A stretch of DNA of 45,592 nt, from NCBI GenBank assembly GCA_018970785.1, contig JAGWVR010000018.1:1-45592 (forward strand), written 5' to 3'. The notes beneath the pieces were generated by a model that had not been told where the DNA came from, searched no databases, and worked only from the letters and a program-made list of their open reading frames with translations. The DNA comes from Planctomycetota bacterium (GTDB lineage: Bacteria > Planctomycetota > Planctomycetia > Pirellulales > UBA1268). Below, one piece after another: positions 30,088 through 36,217 of this stretch. Each line of letters opens with the position of its first letter. Positions within the stretch are counted from its first letter, which is position 1. The translations under genes were made by a program, and so were the position numbers.

Positions 30088-30123
30088 GCCCGGCGGAGTG
30101 CCGACGGCCGTGTGGACGATCCG

Positions 30124-31236
30124 CTACCCCGCCGCGCGGAGGCGCGGGCGCTCGGTGGCCGGCGCCGTGAGGAGGCCGAGGGCCGCATCCCACACCGCCG
30201 CGACGGGGATCGACTCCATCGTCGCCTCCCCCGGCTCCCAGCGGAGGGCGCTGGTCGCCGGCGTGGGGCGGGGGCGCGGCGCTGTCAGCGTTCCGCGGAC
30301 GACGACCGCCGGGGCGTCCCACGGGCACCAGTGGTTGGGATCGGTGGGGCCGACGAGGACCACCACCGGCGTGCCGTGGCTGGCGGCGACGTGCACCGGG
30401 CCGCTGTCGACGCCGATGCACAGGTCCATCCGCGCAAGCAACGCGCCGAGGTGGGCGAGCGAGACGTGCTGCGACCAGTCGTGGGAATGCCGGGCGGCGA
30501 GCGGCCCGGCACGCTCGACGATCTGCCGGTGGAACGGCATCTGCGCGGGGGACCCGCAGAACACCACGTCGCAGTCGCGCTCGCGCACCAGCCGCGCCAC
30601 CAGCGCCCCCCAGCGTGCCTCGGGCCACTCACGCTGCCAGGAGGTCGATTTCGGGCTGAGGAACACGCGCTTCCGGCCGGCGGGAACGAGGCTCTCGAGC
30701 GCCGCCACCGTCTCCCGGCCCGCGTCCGACACCCAGTTCTCGTTGCGGCCGTCGTCGATCGCGATCCCGTCGGCCCGCAACAGGTCGAGGAACAATTCCA
30801 CCTCGTGGCGGTGCGCGCCGATGGGCACGGAGCGCGAGAGGAACGCCCCCCGGCCGCCGCCGGCGAAGCCGACGCGGTGGGGGATCCCCGCCAGCCACAC
30901 CGGGACGATGCTCGACAGGGCGCGCTTGAGGACGTAGGCCCGGGTGTAGCGGCGTTCGCGGAGGCAGGCGGCGAGGCGGAACTGGTTGGTGAGCAGCACC
31001 GGCGCCAGGCGATGGCCGGGCCGGGGCAGATCCCAGGAGACGAGCCCGTCGTGGTACGGGCAGTCGGCGAGCACCGCCCCGGAGACCTTCTCGACGAGGA
31101 CCTCGATCCGCGCCTCCGGATAGCGCGTCCGCAGGTTGCGCAGGAACGGGATCGCCATCACCGTGTCGCCGACGTAGCGCGTCCGGACCACGAGGATCCG
31201 TTCGTCACGACCGCCGGACAGCAATGGACGGGTCAT
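30124..31236 (-). CDS. Glycosyltransferase family 9 (heptosyltransferase-like)
   Basis: A 370-residue GT-B-fold enzyme of the ADP-heptose:LPS heptosyltransferase family, which adds heptose or a related sugar to the lipopolysaccharide core on the cytoplasmic face of the inner membrane. The N-terminal domain starts with ILVVRTRYVGDTVMAIPFLR (14-33), the acceptor side. The C-terminal nucleotide-sugar domain shows FLSPKSTSWQREWPEARW and the family hallmark CIGVDSGPVHVAASHGTP (about 296-313). It has no signal sequence. It lies 21 bases after bamA on the same strand, so both may be made as one unit for outer membrane assembly. The exact sugar donor is not readable. Confidence 0.88.
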   Translation of the reverse strand: MTRPLLSGGRDERILVVRTRYVGDTVMAIPFLRNLRTRYPEARIEVLVEKVSGAVLADCPYHDGLVSWDLPRPGHRLAPVLLTNQFRLAACLRERRYTRAYVLKRALSSIVPVWLAGIPHRVGFAGGGRGAFLSRSVPIGAHRHEVELFLDLLRADGIAIDDGRNENWVSDAGRETVAALESLVPAGRKRVFLSPKSTSWQREWPEARWGALVARLVRERDCDVVFCGSPAQMPFHRQIVERAGPLAARHSHDWSQHVSLAHLGALLARMDLCIGVDSGPVHVAASHGTPVVVLVGPTDPNHWCPWDAPAVVVRGTLTAPRPRPTPATSALRWEPGEATMESIPVAAVWDAALGLLTAPATERPRLRAAG

Positions 31237-31257
31237 GGCGACGCGGCACGGAGGCGG

Positions 31258-34200
31258 TCAGCGGGCGAAGCCGACGAAGAAGCTGAACAGCTGCTGGCTG
31301 TCTTCCGGGGCGTAGGCCACCGGGACGGCGAAGTCGAGCGCGATCGGCGCCGGACCCATCGCCGGCAGCGTGATCCGCAGGCCGAACCCCGGGGCGACGC
31401 GGAAGTTGTTGATCGAGACGTTGCTCTCGACCGTACCGAAGTCGGTGAACACCACGCCGCGGAGCGTGTCGTCGGCGGTGATCGGAAACATGTACTCGAC
31501 GGTGTTGAGCCACTGGAACGGACCGCCGACGATGGCCCCGTTCTGCCGCGGGCTCGCGCCGCGGAACACGAAGCCGCGGAGCGTGTTGTAGCCACCGGCG
31601 AAGAAGTTGTCGTAGGCCGGCGTGTCGGGGCCCGACATGCCGAGCACCGAGCCCACCGAGAGGACGTGGCGCCCCGAGCCGTCGGGGCGCTCGGCGAGGA
31701 GGAAGTACTGCCGTCCCTCGAGAATCCCGCGCGGGTAGACGAACGTCCCGACCACCTGCTCGAACTCGAACGTCACCAGGTGCCCCTGGGTGGGGAGGAA
31801 CGGGCTGTCGCGCGTGTCGTGGATGATGCCGCCGCTGAAGCCGTACACCGAGTTGGTGCCGAGCATGTTGACGATGTCGGGGGCGAGGACGCGCGGGTTG
31901 AAGACGTCGACGCTCTCGCCGCGGAAGCCGGCGTTGACCGACAGGTCGGGGGCGAAGGCGAACTGGTAGCCGAGGCCGACGCGGCCGCCGACGCGCGCCT
32001 CGGCCCAGTCGTAGAAGTAGCGCGTGTAGTAGCTGGCGCTGGTCGACAGGCCGATCCGCGTGTCGAACAGGTACGGCTCCTGGAACGTCGCCGTGTAGCG
32101 CTGCAGCTGCGTGCCGGGGGCGGCCTCGAGGCGGAAGCGCTGGCCCGCGCCGCGGAAGGCGACGCCGTTGCGGATGTCGTCCCAGCTGCGCGGCAGCCGG
32201 AAGAGGTCGAAGTTCTGCTCGTCGACGACGATGTTGCCGACGAGGCCGGCGTTGGAATTGACGCCGGCACCGATCATCAGGCGGCCGGTCTGCGTCTCCT
32301 CGGCGTCGACGTCGACGATCACGTAGGGCTCGTTGCCGGGAAACACCTGCTGCGGCGGCGGTCCGCCGAAGTCGGGCACGGCCGGCGCGCCCGGGAACGG
32401 CGCCATCCCGGGAGCGACCGGGGGGAGCATTCCCGGCTGCACGGCCTGGGCGGGAACGACCGGCGCGAACGGCTGGAACGGCCCGCCGGCCTGCTGCACG
32501 CCGGGACTCTGCTGCGGAGCGACGGTCCGACCGTAGTCGACCGCCTCGGGGCCGGTCGGCGCCAGCGCCGTGCCCCCCCACGGTCCGGCGGGGACTGGAG
32601 CGGGGGCCGGCGCGGGCACGACCGGCACGCCGAACGACGACTGGCCGGGAGCCTGGGCATAGCGCGGGGCGGGCTGGCCGGCGTAGCTCGCCGGCGGCAC
32701 CTGCTGATAGCGCGGGACGGCGGGCGGAGGGGCGGCGCCGGGGCTCTGGCCGCGCCACACCTGCCGCGGCGGCGCCGCGGGGGCGGGGGACGGCGCCGAG
32801 GGGCCGGCGGGGATGGCGGGGGCGGTGGCCTGGCCGGCGGTCGCCTCGGGGACGAGGTCCCCTTCGAGCACCAGGTCGATCACCTCGTCGGCCGGCTCGC
32901 CGTCGGGGCTCTGACCGCGGAAGCCGGGGCGGTTGGGATCGCGGGCGATCTGCTCACGCTCCAGTTCGCCCGGGTCGGGCTTGCTGAAGGCGATCCGCGG
33001 CCCCTCCCCCTTGGAGGCGTCGGTGAGGAACAGGCTGCTCGACTTGAGGCGGCGCTCGTCCTCGCGGAGCTTGCGGATGTCGAGGATGTCGCCGGGGCGG
33101 AGCGACAGCCGGTTGAGGATCGTGGCGTGGCGCGTGTGGGGATGCTCGCCGCGGATCCGGACGTTGATCTTCCCGACGCGGTAGCGCTGCCCCTCGGCGA
33201 CGCTGTACACCAAGTCGAGCTGACCCGGTTCCTCGAGAAACCGCGGATCGGCGCGGATGTCGGCGAAGACGAAGCCGCGGCCGCCGTAGATGTCGCGGAT
33301 CAGCCCCAGGTCGGCGTCCATCTTCGCCTGGTTGAACGGCTCGCCGCTCTTCAGCTTGAGGTCACGGGAGAGGAACTCGCTCTTGAACCGGCTGTTGCCG
33401 ATGAACGAGACGTTGCGCACCGAGTAGCGCGGTCCCTCGTTGATCACGAAGGTCAGCAGGGTCCAGTCGCGGCCGGCGCCGTGGACGACCTGCAATTCGC
33501 GGCCGACGCGCGCCTGGAAGAAACCGAGGCTGCGGTAGTAGGCGGTGAGGACGTCGACGTCTTCGTCGATCTTCTGCCGGTCGACGTCGCCGCCGAGCAG
33601 CCAGAACACGCCGGGCTTCGACTTGATCTGCGTGAGCAGCCGGGCGTCGCTGACGATCGTGTTGCCGACGAAGTCGGTCCACAGCGTCTTGCGGGAGCGC
33701 CCCTCGTCGATGAGGAACACCGCCCCCTTGTCGCCCGGCTTGTTGCCCTCGATCGTCGCGACGCGGGCCGCGTCGTAGCCTTTCTCGTGGTAGAAGGCCT
33801 CGAGCCGCCGCCGCGCCTCCTCGACGACGTAGGGATCCATCGAGTCGCCGACGTCGATCTCGGCCTTCTTGCGCAGCGTGCGCGTCATCACCGACTCGTT
33901 GCCCACGTAGCGGACGTAGCGGAGCATCGGCCGCTCGACCACCTGGAACACGACGACCGCCCCCTCGGCGCCGCGGATCACCTTCGGGTGGACGTCGACG
34001 AACTTCCGCGTCCGGTGGAGCGTGCGGACGTCCTCGGCGATCGCCTGCGGGTCGAAGGTCTGGCCGGCGCGGGTGGAGAGCTTGGGGAGCTTCGAGACCT
34101 CGGTGGCGTGGTTCCCCTCGATCCGGACCTCGATGATCCGCTCTCCCGCGGCGGGCTGGGCGGCGGCGTCGCCCGGCGGCGCGACGGCCGGTGCTCCCGG

Positions 34201-34407
34201 GGCGACCGGCGGCAGGGTCGCCACCGGCGCCGAGGGGGATCCGGGGGCGGCGGGCGCGGGTAGCGCCACGGGTGCCTGCGCTGCCGCGAACTGTCCTCCC
34301 GGCGGGATCGCCAGGGCGGCGACGGTCGCCAGCACGGCCACGGTGATCCGGCCGACCGCGGGGCCGGCGGTCGGGCTCTTCGGCAGGTGGCGGTGGAACG
34401 AAGGCAT
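31258..34407 (-). CDS. bamA: Outer membrane assembly factor BamA, with proline-rich insert
   Basis: Omp85-family beta barrel that inserts proteins into the outer membrane. It has 1049 residues, against about 800 in E. coli. A signal peptide (about 1-44) is followed by a Pro/Ala linker. POTRA-like domains lie at about 91-158, 161-236, 239-325, 328-404 and 407 onward, with repeated turns such as YVRYVGNES and VSFIGNSRF. Residues 475-692 (32332-32985) form a Pro/Gly/Ala-rich insert. The last POTRA strand, YVIVDVDAEE (695-704), appears only after it. The barrel occupies about 710-1049 and contains LRGF (943-946), the conserved lid-lock loop motif. The last residues are FFVGFAR; the usual terminal aromatic residue is followed by AR. 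The ATG at 34407 precedes the signal peptide. The glycosyltransferase gene follows by 21 bases. Confidence 0.9.
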   Translation of the reverse strand: MPSFHRHLPKSPTAGPAVGRITVAVLATVAALAIPPGGQFAAAQAPVALPAPAAPGSPSAPVATLPPVAPGAPAVAPPGDAAAQPAAGERIIEVRIEGNHATEVSKLPKLSTRAGQTFDPQAIAEDVRTLHRTRKFVDVHPKVIRGAEGAVVVFQVVERPMLRYVRYVGNESVMTRTLRKKAEIDVGDSMDPYVVEEARRRLEAFYHEKGYDAARVATIEGNKPGDKGAVFLIDEGRSRKTLWTDFVGNTIVSDARLLTQIKSKPGVFWLLGGDVDRQKIDEDVDVLTAYYRSLGFFQARVGRELQVVHGAGRDWTLLTFVINEGPRYSVRNVSFIGNSRFKSEFLSRDLKLKSGEPFNQAKMDADLGLIRDIYGGRGFVFADIRADPRFLEEPGQLDLVYSVAEGQRYRVGKINVRIRGEHPHTRHATILNRLSLRPGDILDIRKLREDERRLKSSSLFLTDASKGEGPRIAFSKPDPGELEREQIARDPNRPGFRGQSPDGEPADEVIDLVLEGDLVPEATAGQATAPAIPAGPSAPSPAPAAPPRQVWRGQSPGAAPPPAVPRYQQVPPASYAGQPAPRYAQAPGQSSFGVPVVPAPAPAPVPAGPWGGTALAPTGPEAVDYGRTVAPQQSPGVQQAGGPFQPFAPVVPAQAVQPGMLPPVAPGMAPFPGAPAVPDFGGPPPQQVFPGNEPYVIVDVDAEETQTGRLMIGAGVNSNAGLVGNIVVDEQNFDLFRLPRSWDDIRNGVAFRGAGQRFRLEAAPGTQLQRYTATFQEPYLFDTRIGLSTSASYYTRYFYDWAEARVGGRVGLGYQFAFAPDLSVNAGFRGESVDVFNPRVLAPDIVNMLGTNSVYGFSGGIIHDTRDSPFLPTQGHLVTFEFEQVVGTFVYPRGILEGRQYFLLAERPDGSGRHVLSVGSVLGMSGPDTPAYDNFFAGGYNTLRGFVFRGASPRQNGAIVGGPFQWLNTVEYMFPITADDTLRGVVFTDFGTVESNVSINNFRVAPGFGLRITLPAMGPAPIALDFAVPVAYAPEDSQQLFSFFVGFAR
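32332..32985 (-). other. Low-complexity proline-rich segment inside bamA
   Basis: Encodes BamA residues 475-692. Residues 520-692 are dominated by Pro, Ala, Gly and Gln, with recurrent short units such as PAPAPVPAG and PGMAPFPGAP and no regular period. It is predicted to be disordered and would be placed in the periplasm between the fifth POTRA domain and the barrel. Confidence 0.7.
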
Positions 34408-34431
34408 GGAATTGAGCGAAAGGCGGATCGG

Positions 34432-34450
34432 CCGCGGAAGGAAGCCGCGG
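34432..34450 (-). promoter_or_regulatory. Hairpin in the bamA 5' region
   Basis: CCGCGG (34432-34437) and CCGCGG (34445-34450) form a 6-bp stem with a seven-base loop, 24 bases ahead of the bamA start. It may lie in the bamA leader, since a weak TATCTC -10-like hexamer lies at 34457-34452. Confidence 0.25.
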
Positions 34451-34523
34451 AGAGATAGCGGGGGCCCCGTGCCGCCACAAGGCGAACTCGCCGTCGATCG
34501 CCGTGCGCCCGGGAGCGGGTCGC

Positions 34524-34553
34524 TTGACGGTCGCCGTCTTCGAGCGGTACCGT
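34524..34553 (+). promoter_or_regulatory. Predicted promoter of the TsaC-like/phosphatase-rpiB operon
   Basis: TTGACG (34524-34529, 5/6) and TACCGT (34548-34553, 3/6) are 18 bases apart, 44 bases ahead of the ATG at 34598. The GGTACCGT octamer resembles the GGTATCnT elements seen ahead of minus-strand genes. Confidence 0.4.
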
Positions 34554-34597
34554 TCACCGCGTGCTCCCCCCGGGGGCCCGGTTCCCCGGTCTTGCCC

Positions 34598-35758
34598 ATG
34601 CCGCCAACGGTCATCGACCTGCGCCGTGCGGATGACCCCCGCGATGTCGTGCACCGTGCGGTGCAGATGCTCGCCGAGGGGCGGTGCGTCGGTTTTCCCA
34701 CCGAAACCGACTACGTCGTCGCCGCCAATGTCCGCGATCCGGCGGCCGTGGTGCGGCTGACGAAGCTCGTCGAGCCGCGCCGGGGCGAGCCCGCGCTGTC
34801 GCTGGCGCTGAAGAGCGCCGACGAGGCGCTCGACTGGGCGCCCCACCTCCCCGCTCCCGTGCGCCGGCTGGCGCGGCGCTGCTGGCCTGGGCCGGTGGTC
34901 ACGCTCGTCCGCGGCGACGCCCCCGAAGCCCTCGTTCACCGGCTCCCGGAGGCCGTCCGCCCGGCGCTGCTCGCCGACGGTCGGCTGCGGCTGCGCGTGC
35001 CGGGCCATCCGATGCTCGCCGAGAGCCTGCGGATGCACGCCGGTCCGCTGGCGCTGGCCGAGCCCCTCGTCGACGGACGGTGCGCCACGACCGCCGCCGA
35101 GTTGCTGTCGCGCGCCGGGGACGGGGTCGGCTTGGTGATCGACGACGGCGGCGTCCGCTACCCGCAGGAGGCGACGACGATCGCCGTCACCGACGGCAGC
35201 CTGGAGGTGGTCCGGCCGGGGATCGTCGCCGCCGATACGCTGCGGCGCCTGTCGAGCCTGATGGTCCTGTTCGTGTGCACCGGCAACACCTGCCGGAGCC
35301 CGATGGCGGAGGCCCAGTTCCGCCAGCTCGTCGCCGAGCGTCTCGGTTGCCGCGCCGACGAGATCGAGCAGCACGGCATCGTCGCCAGCAGCGCCGGCCT
35401 CGCCGCCTGGGCCGGGGCGCCGGCCAGCGCCGGGGCGCTCGAGGCGATGGCCGAGATCGGTGCCGACCTCGCCGGCCACGAGAGCCAGCCGATCACCGAC
35501 GCGCTCGTCCGCCAGGCCGACGTCATCCTGACGATGACCGGGTCGCACCGCACGGCCCTCCTCGCCCAGTTTCCCGAGGCGGGGGGGCGCGTGGAGATGC
35601 TGTCCCCCGACCGGCAGGACGTGAGCGACCCGATAGGCGGCCCGCTTCCCACCTACCGTGCCTGTGCGGCGCAGATCCGCGGGCATTTGCTCGCCCGGCT
35701 CGCTACACTACTCGACGCTCCATCCGGCCGGGATCCGGGTGGGAAGACACGGGAATGA
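34598..35758 (+). CDS. TsaC/Sua5-like domain fused to low-molecular-weight (arginine-type) phosphatase
   Basis: A 386-residue two-domain protein. Residues 1-210 match the YrdC/Sua5 fold (FPTETDYVVAANV at 33-45, VVTLVRG, LVIDDGGV, LEVVRPG). This fold makes threonylcarbamoyl-AMP for tRNA t6A. However, the KGRP-like loop is replaced by EPRRGEPALSL and the Ser-Ala-Asn motif by ALAEPL (152-157), so the usual K-x-R/S-x-N residues appear lost. Residues 222-370 are a low-molecular-weight phosphatase with the P-loop CTGNTCRS (227-234) and general acid Asp344 in SDPIGG. Thr231 corresponds to Thr11 of Bacillus YwlE, the residue that favours phosphoarginine over phosphotyrosine. rpiB follows three bases later, as in the ywlC-ywlE-ywlF group of Bacillus. 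I infer phosphatase activity to be intact and TsaC activity to be doubtful. Confidence 0.85.
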   Translation: MPPTVIDLRRADDPRDVVHRAVQMLAEGRCVGFPTETDYVVAANVRDPAAVVRLTKLVEPRRGEPALSLALKSADEALDWAPHLPAPVRRLARRCWPGPVVTLVRGDAPEALVHRLPEAVRPALLADGRLRLRVPGHPMLAESLRMHAGPLALAEPLVDGRCATTAAELLSRAGDGVGLVIDDGGVRYPQEATTIAVTDGSLEVVRPGIVAADTLRRLSSLMVLFVCTGNTCRSPMAEAQFRQLVAERLGCRADEIEQHGIVASSAGLAAWAGAPASAGALEAMAEIGADLAGHESQPITDALVRQADVILTMTGSHRTALLAQFPEAGGRVEMLSPDRQDVSDPIGGPLPTYRACAAQIRGHLLARLATLLDAPSGRDPGGKTRE

Positions 35759-35761
35759 GCC

Positions 35762-36217
35762 ATGCGGATCGCCGTCGGCAGTGACCACCGGGGGGTATCC
35801 GCCCGGCTGCGGTTGATCGGTCTGCTCGAGCGCCTCGGCAATACGGTCGTCGACTGTGGCTGCCCGACGACCGATCCGGTCGATTACCCCGACATCGCCG
35901 CCGACGTCGCCGGCCGGGTGAGCCAGGGGACCGTCGACCGCGGCATCCTCCTCTGCTGCACCGGCGTGGGGATGGCGATCGCCGCCAACAAGCTCCCCGG
36001 CGTCCGGGCGGTGACCTGCGGCGACGAGGTGACCGCCGAACTGAGCCGCCGTCACAACGACCTCAACGTCCTCTGCCTATCGGCCGAGATGGTGGGGCCG
36101 GAGCTGCAGGAGAAGATCATCCGCACCTGGCTCGACACCCCGTTCGAGGGCGGCCGCCACGCCCGACGGGTGGCGAAGATCAAGGCCCTCGAGCCGCACT
36201 GCGGCGAGGGCGGCTGA
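35762..36217 (+). CDS. rpiB: Ribose-5-phosphate isomerase B
   Basis: Interconverts ribose 5-phosphate and ribulose 5-phosphate in the pentose phosphate pathway; some family members act on allose or galactose phosphates. The 151-residue protein matches the RpiB/LacA/LacB fold: IAVGSDHRGV at the N-terminus, the active-site segment ILLCCTGVGMAIAANK (about 62-77) and RRHNDLNVLCLSA. The usual sequence in the active-site loop is C-G-T/S-G; here a second Cys replaces the Gly. His in SRRHND is the conserved phosphate-side residue. The gene begins three bases after the stop of the phosphatase fusion, so the two are almost certainly translated from one mRNA. Confidence 0.9.
   Translation: MRIAVGSDHRGVSARLRLIGLLERLGNTVVDCGCPTTDPVDYPDIAADVAGRVSQGTVDRGILLCCTGVGMAIAANKLPGVRAVTCGDEVTAELSRRHNDLNVLCLSAEMVGPELQEKIIRTWLDTPFEGGRHARRVAKIKALEPHCGEGG

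Follow-up and report, generated by a model that had tools for sequence, protein, structure and literature searches.

In Bacillus subtilis, ywlC, ywlE and ywlF (rpiB) are clustered in that order, with mntP (ywlD) between ywlC and ywlE. The same three functions follow one another in the same order in the planctomycete DNA analysed here (a stretch of 45,592 nucleotides, hereafter the window), but with the first two genes fused into one. ATP binding in TsaC/Sua5 requires K56xR58 and S143xN145, and threonine binding involves T33, S181 and R195 (P. abyssi numbering). The N-terminal half of the fusion shares with TsaC/YwlC/Sua5 the fold (Z 22.5–24.1 to Sua5 chains), the PTET motif and an R-P-G segment, but differs in that both KxR and SxN are replaced, its score lies below the TC-AMP synthase cut-off and it is joined to a phosphatase. 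The C-terminal half resembles YwlE/PtpB of Bacillus, Geobacillus and Staphylococcus in fold (Z 24.9), sequence (35% identity), P-loop (CTGNTCRS) and D-P loop Asp, and the window's genome likewise has McsB and a McsA-like gene; YwlE, however, is a single-domain protein, whereas here the phosphatase forms half of a larger one.

YrdC-fold domains inside larger proteins are also known from HypF and TobZ (PMC9654439); these have a Kae1-like carbamoyltransferase as partner and keep KxR/SxN, unlike the window's fusion. Among solved structures, YciO matches the N-terminal half with the highest score, in a tie with Sua5, but it largely keeps the TsaC-like active-site residues (PMC12506659) that the window copy has lost. 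A literature search, with most subscription journals outside its coverage, returned nothing relevant on the fusion, on a link between YwlE and Sua5 or on one between YwlE and rpiB, nor did it find a study of arginine phosphorylation in Planctomycetota or biochemistry on any planctomycete fusion protein. Each half is a known fold and a known enzyme family; the literature searched did not mention that the two are combined, how widely the fusion is spread or that one side of it has eroded repeatedly.

The fused gene and its genomic setting

The draft genome, 3.38 Mb in size and 69% complete, includes the window as contig C13. One open reading frame on the forward strand (34598..35758, 386 aa, no internal stops) joins a TsaC/YrdC-fold domain that is catalytically eroded (aa 24–208, 34667..35221, +; PF01300, E = 2.6e-18) to a YwlE-type low-molecular-weight (LMW) phosphatase domain (aa 223–361, 35264..35680, +; PF01451 (LMWPc), E = 1.5e-25). 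Both domain assignments had been proposed in an earlier note made from the sequence alone, and both proved correct by profile and by structure matches; the AlphaFold2 model of the protein is confident (mean pLDDT 89.7, pTM 0.82). The next gene in the apparent operon, rpiB, encoding ribose-5-phosphate isomerase B (35762..36217, +; PF02502, E = 2.9e-51), starts three bases after the fusion's stop and exceeds the TIGR01120 equivalog cut-off (152.6 against 138.65 bits), confirming its earlier identification and, with it, that the ywlC-ywlE-rpiB order is kept at this locus. A chance reading frame was rejected given near full-length alignment in sequences down to ~45% identity. Several very long open reading frames in the window (30112–34263, 33362–35686 and others) overlap other frames or the opposite strand, and are shadows produced by high G+C content, not genes.

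Structural comparison with VIA-align gave the N-terminal half a YrdC fold, with Z 24.7 to YciO 1k7j (202 aligned, rmsd 2.4) and 24.1 to P. abyssi Sua5 6f89 (206 aligned). In alignments, the site of the lost KxR motif is V58-E59-P60-R61 (34769..34780, +), where the genome's other copy has KGRP, and that of SxN is E155-P156-L157 (35060..35068, +), which replaces S-A-N and corresponds to PSAN in the other copy. The four tetrad positions thus read V or E, P or R (depending on alignment register), E and L. A phmmer alignment places R61 at the Arg of KxR, a register-dependent match; some relatives carry W, L, H or M at that position. The K and S positions are never K or S in the window protein or in any of 24 aligned close relatives (24/24), across which E155, at the Ser position of SxN, is invariant. 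The PTET threonine and the later arginine are retained, Ala occupies the S181 position, and the half scores 69.1 bits against TIGR00057, below the cut-off of 123.2. The missing motifs remarked on from the sequence are therefore borne out by alignment with the 24 relatives and with fusions phylum-wide, and they point to a loss of TC-AMP synthesis by the window's TsaC half; N-terminal halves of this kind should not be annotated as TC-AMP synthase.

A search of the genome for a second, complete tsaC found one, a stand-alone Sua5 on contig C62 with TETVYG, KGRP and PSAN motifs and a Sua5_C domain, scoring 191.2 bits against the same TIGR00057 cut-off. McsB, which the earlier note had rightly reported as missing from the window, was found on contig C24 (446 bits, cut-off 385) adjoining a McsA-like gene that falls short of its own cut-off (79 against 210 bits), so that the mcsA–mcsB pair lies elsewhere in the genome. 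The only other LMWPc protein found there, on C18, has the ArsC-like loop CVENSNRS and was ruled out as a second YwlE on that account.

Active-site erosion and stand-alone Sua5

We aligned 122 fusions, each from a different genome, and read the tetrad columns, with 'intact' meaning that K, S and N are present. Stand-alone TsaC/Sua5 was located in the same genomes by PF01300, setting aside the fusion itself and HypF, the latter recognised from its long open frames and lower scores. Where no stand-alone Sua5 was found (n = 72; most genomes are drafts, so some absences may be gaps), 71 fusions were intact and one was eroded. Where one was present, 43 were eroded and seven intact (n = 50, including the eroded G330, recoded as Sua5-present after a targeted search found a separate short open frame encoding Sua5_C, a one-sided recoding as that search covered only some of the genomes coded Sua5-absent). 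The association has a Fisher p of 2e-24, a value that ignores relatedness. Counting only strict KRSN gives 62/72 without and 6/50 with Sua5, the lower figures arising because some lineages carry KxS, KxT or KxE. The sole unexplained exception, G005, is eroded with no Sua5 found; its congeners G015 and G029 have Sua5.

Relatedness was taken into account on a tree built from the full-length protein after masking the tetrad columns, used because a tree of the phosphatase domain only was too poorly supported (three well-supported pairs). It implies ~12 changes of state and yields 12 independent pairs, 10 of them as predicted and about none against, with several branches weakly supported; well-supported branches alone leave six independent pairs, 5.5 as predicted on average (median sign-test p = 0.03). 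Five families (f2, f7, f48, f51 and f84) contain both states, each with the predicted partner state. Scores against TIGR00057 differ likewise, four of five tested intact fusions reaching 152–169 bits and the fifth 117, and three eroded ones 40–87.

Judged by its motifs, the TsaC half of an intact fusion looks like the cell's only TC-AMP synthase in most of the fusions compared, and the seven genomes with both an intact fusion and Sua5 look like an intermediate stage. The tie between erosion and stand-alone Sua5 suggests that in the ancestral protein an arginine phosphatase was probably joined to a working TC-AMP synthase and, as the TsaC motif is intact in most fusions, that erosion is a derived state following redundancy. 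The window copy probably belongs to a large set of fusions whose TsaC half, once redundant, was free to turn into a pseudoenzyme, with the phosphatase retained. These comparisons suggest that one polypeptide may serve many planctomycetes both for making the t6A precursor and for removing arginine phosphate, which would link translation fidelity to protein quality control. Repeated loss at one site alongside a redundant Sua5 also offers a clean natural series on the origin of pseudoenzymes, with sister families showing the intact, the redundant-but-intact and the eroded state.

Proposed roles of the two halves

Our preferred reading, to which we assign a probability of roughly 0.7, is that the planctomycete fusion of ywlC (tsaC) and ywlE encodes a predicted arginine phosphatase opposing McsB, with a TsaC half that became a pseudoenzyme after Sua5 was gained; what we infer is the substrate, the loss of TC-AMP synthesis, the sequence in which these events took place and why the half was retained. 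The phosphatase half would most likely be a cysteine-based protein-arginine phosphatase counteracting McsB, in which C227 would attack phosphoarginine, R233 hold the phosphate and D344 serve as the acid, with T231 conferring a preference for phosphoarginine over phosphotyrosine. The N-terminal half would descend from an active TC-AMP synthase; a stand-alone Sua5 would then have been gained by the lineage for the essential t6A pathway, and the fused copy would have lost its ATP-binding tetrad to become a folded pseudoenzyme, which would be retained because the phosphatase relies on it to fold, to stay stable, to assemble or to bind partners.

The constraint on the eroded half bears on this last step. 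Within the window's genus, dN/dS is 0.14–0.29 for the N-terminal half versus 0.12–0.22 for the phosphatase, values near enough to reject a decaying pseudogene segment; the half is under purifying selection and therefore retains some role. The earlier note had suggested a regulatory or nucleotide-sensing one, which is possible on these sequences, and in its fuller form this would make the eroded domain a sensor that controls the arginine phosphatase through a ligand or partner protein bound within the old pocket or close to it. The window family is indeed strongly conserved, including at residues absent from active TsaC (PTETDY, E155), the N-half dN/dS stays below 0.3, and among the strong matches listed none lacks the domain altogether. 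However, drift in family f21 has left the domain hardly recognisable to PF01300 (24–37 bits in several genomes) and PTET is lost, which argues against one conserved ligand. At a C-terminal identity of 0.6, moreover, N-terminal identity is 0.36 in eroded pairs versus 0.58 in intact ones (pairs that are not independent), which indicates that the eroded half is under weaker constraint than intact TsaC. Such graded, faster divergence fits relaxed constraint at least as well as sensing, and we consider the sensor unlikely. Taken with the drift in f21, it leads us to prefer, with modest confidence, a structural or partner-binding role over that of a conserved nucleotide sensor. The more specific proposal that the decayed TC-AMP synthase half now serves the arginine phosphatase as an allosteric or partner-binding domain is a tentative one that we would not favour; if true, a two-activity protein that tied tRNA t6A synthesis to arginine-phosphate proteolysis signalling would have been turned repeatedly into a pseudoenzyme-regulated phosphatase, given that the decay happened ~12 times.

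For the phosphatase half, the preferred reading draws on its active site. The P-loop, C227-T-G-N-T231-C-R233-S with the YwlE-type Thr (aa 227–234, 35276..35299, +), and the general acid Asp344 in DPIGG, equivalent to YwlE D118 (35627..35629, +), show that all catalytic residues (C227, R233, D344) are kept together with the specificity residue T231. Its top structural match is B. subtilis YwlE 4etn (Z 24.9, 144 aligned, rmsd 1.3, 35% identity), with which other LMW-PTP structures within 1 Z are tied. According to PMC8001253, citing Fuhrmann 2013, replacing this Thr by Ile moves YwlE from phosphoarginine towards phosphotyrosine. The P-loop does not vary among the close loci covering it and, across the phylum, the D-P loop Asp is present in 122/122 fusions. 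The half thus passes every sequence test for YwlE that could be applied, and the original call of a YwlE-type phosphatase, its specificity position occupied by Thr, stands.

A phosphatase acting on phosphotyrosine or another substrate, unconnected to McsB, would be compatible with the variable specificity of LMW-PTPs and with the Ile, Leu or Arg found at the Thr position in a few fusions; we regard it as rather improbable in the face of Thr in 111/122 fusions, and in 43/44 of those with an eroded TsaC half, of YwlE among the nearest solved structures and of McsB in the window's own genome. McsB was found in 371 of the 392 Planctomycetota genomes sampled, so its co-occurrence with the fusion says little about pairing. 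Nor does McsB require an LMW phosphatase, since none of the LMWPc type was found in six near-complete genomes that have McsB and a stand-alone TsaC (G146, G304, G314 and G331 of family f63; G195 and G284 of f94). It is very improbable that the N-terminal half, instead of being a decayed TsaC, is a YciO-like paralogue that has an activity of its own: YciO 1k7j is its best structural match, though tied with Sua5, but YciO largely keeps the TsaC active-site residues (PMC12506659) that the window copy lacks, and sister-family fusions carry intact KGR/SAN in the corresponding position and are scored as TC-AMP synthase.

Spread in Planctomycetota and outlying cases

Among the 59 genomes of a search of relatives, the window's included, 57 gave a strong match to the fusion, in most cases over nearly the whole protein; in three drafts it was fragmentary or split, and no strong match was obtained in G024 and G045. 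No PF01300 protein of any kind was found in G045 (family f11, 95% complete); t6A synthesis is near-universal. A profile of the fusion (E ≤ 1e-25) detected it in at least 251 of the 392 sampled Planctomycetota genomes, probably a lower bound as some distant fusions with both domains in one frame, such as those of f44 and f76, are overlooked. The survey of other planctomycetes envisaged in the earlier note, which covered Planctomycetota, thus reveals a phylum-wide architecture. At 119 of 149 loci rpiB lies next to the fusion, downstream on the same strand, and at 107 within 200 bases. We infer an old origin of the fusion within the phylum, from the ywlC-ywlE-rpiB cluster.

Distant fusions were noted at L213 (G132), L206 (G332) and, in family f44, L218–L220. 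In f76 the P-loop of these fusions contains Ile (CTGNICRS) and PTET is replaced by PTDT, and those of f44 give a very weak phosphatase match (22–27 bits), a possible mirror case in which the phosphatase half is decaying. Several fusions (L102, L104, L122, L128, L130, L166 and L159) carry KxS for KxR with SxN intact, and no strong stand-alone copy was found in their genomes; KxS may represent an alternative ATP-binding arrangement. Finally, five loci (L035, L042, L043, L048 and L061) come from MAGs titled 'Candidatus Kuenenia stuttgartiensis' or 'Acidimicrobiales', titles that look misassigned because their fusions are 64–69% identical to that of the window.
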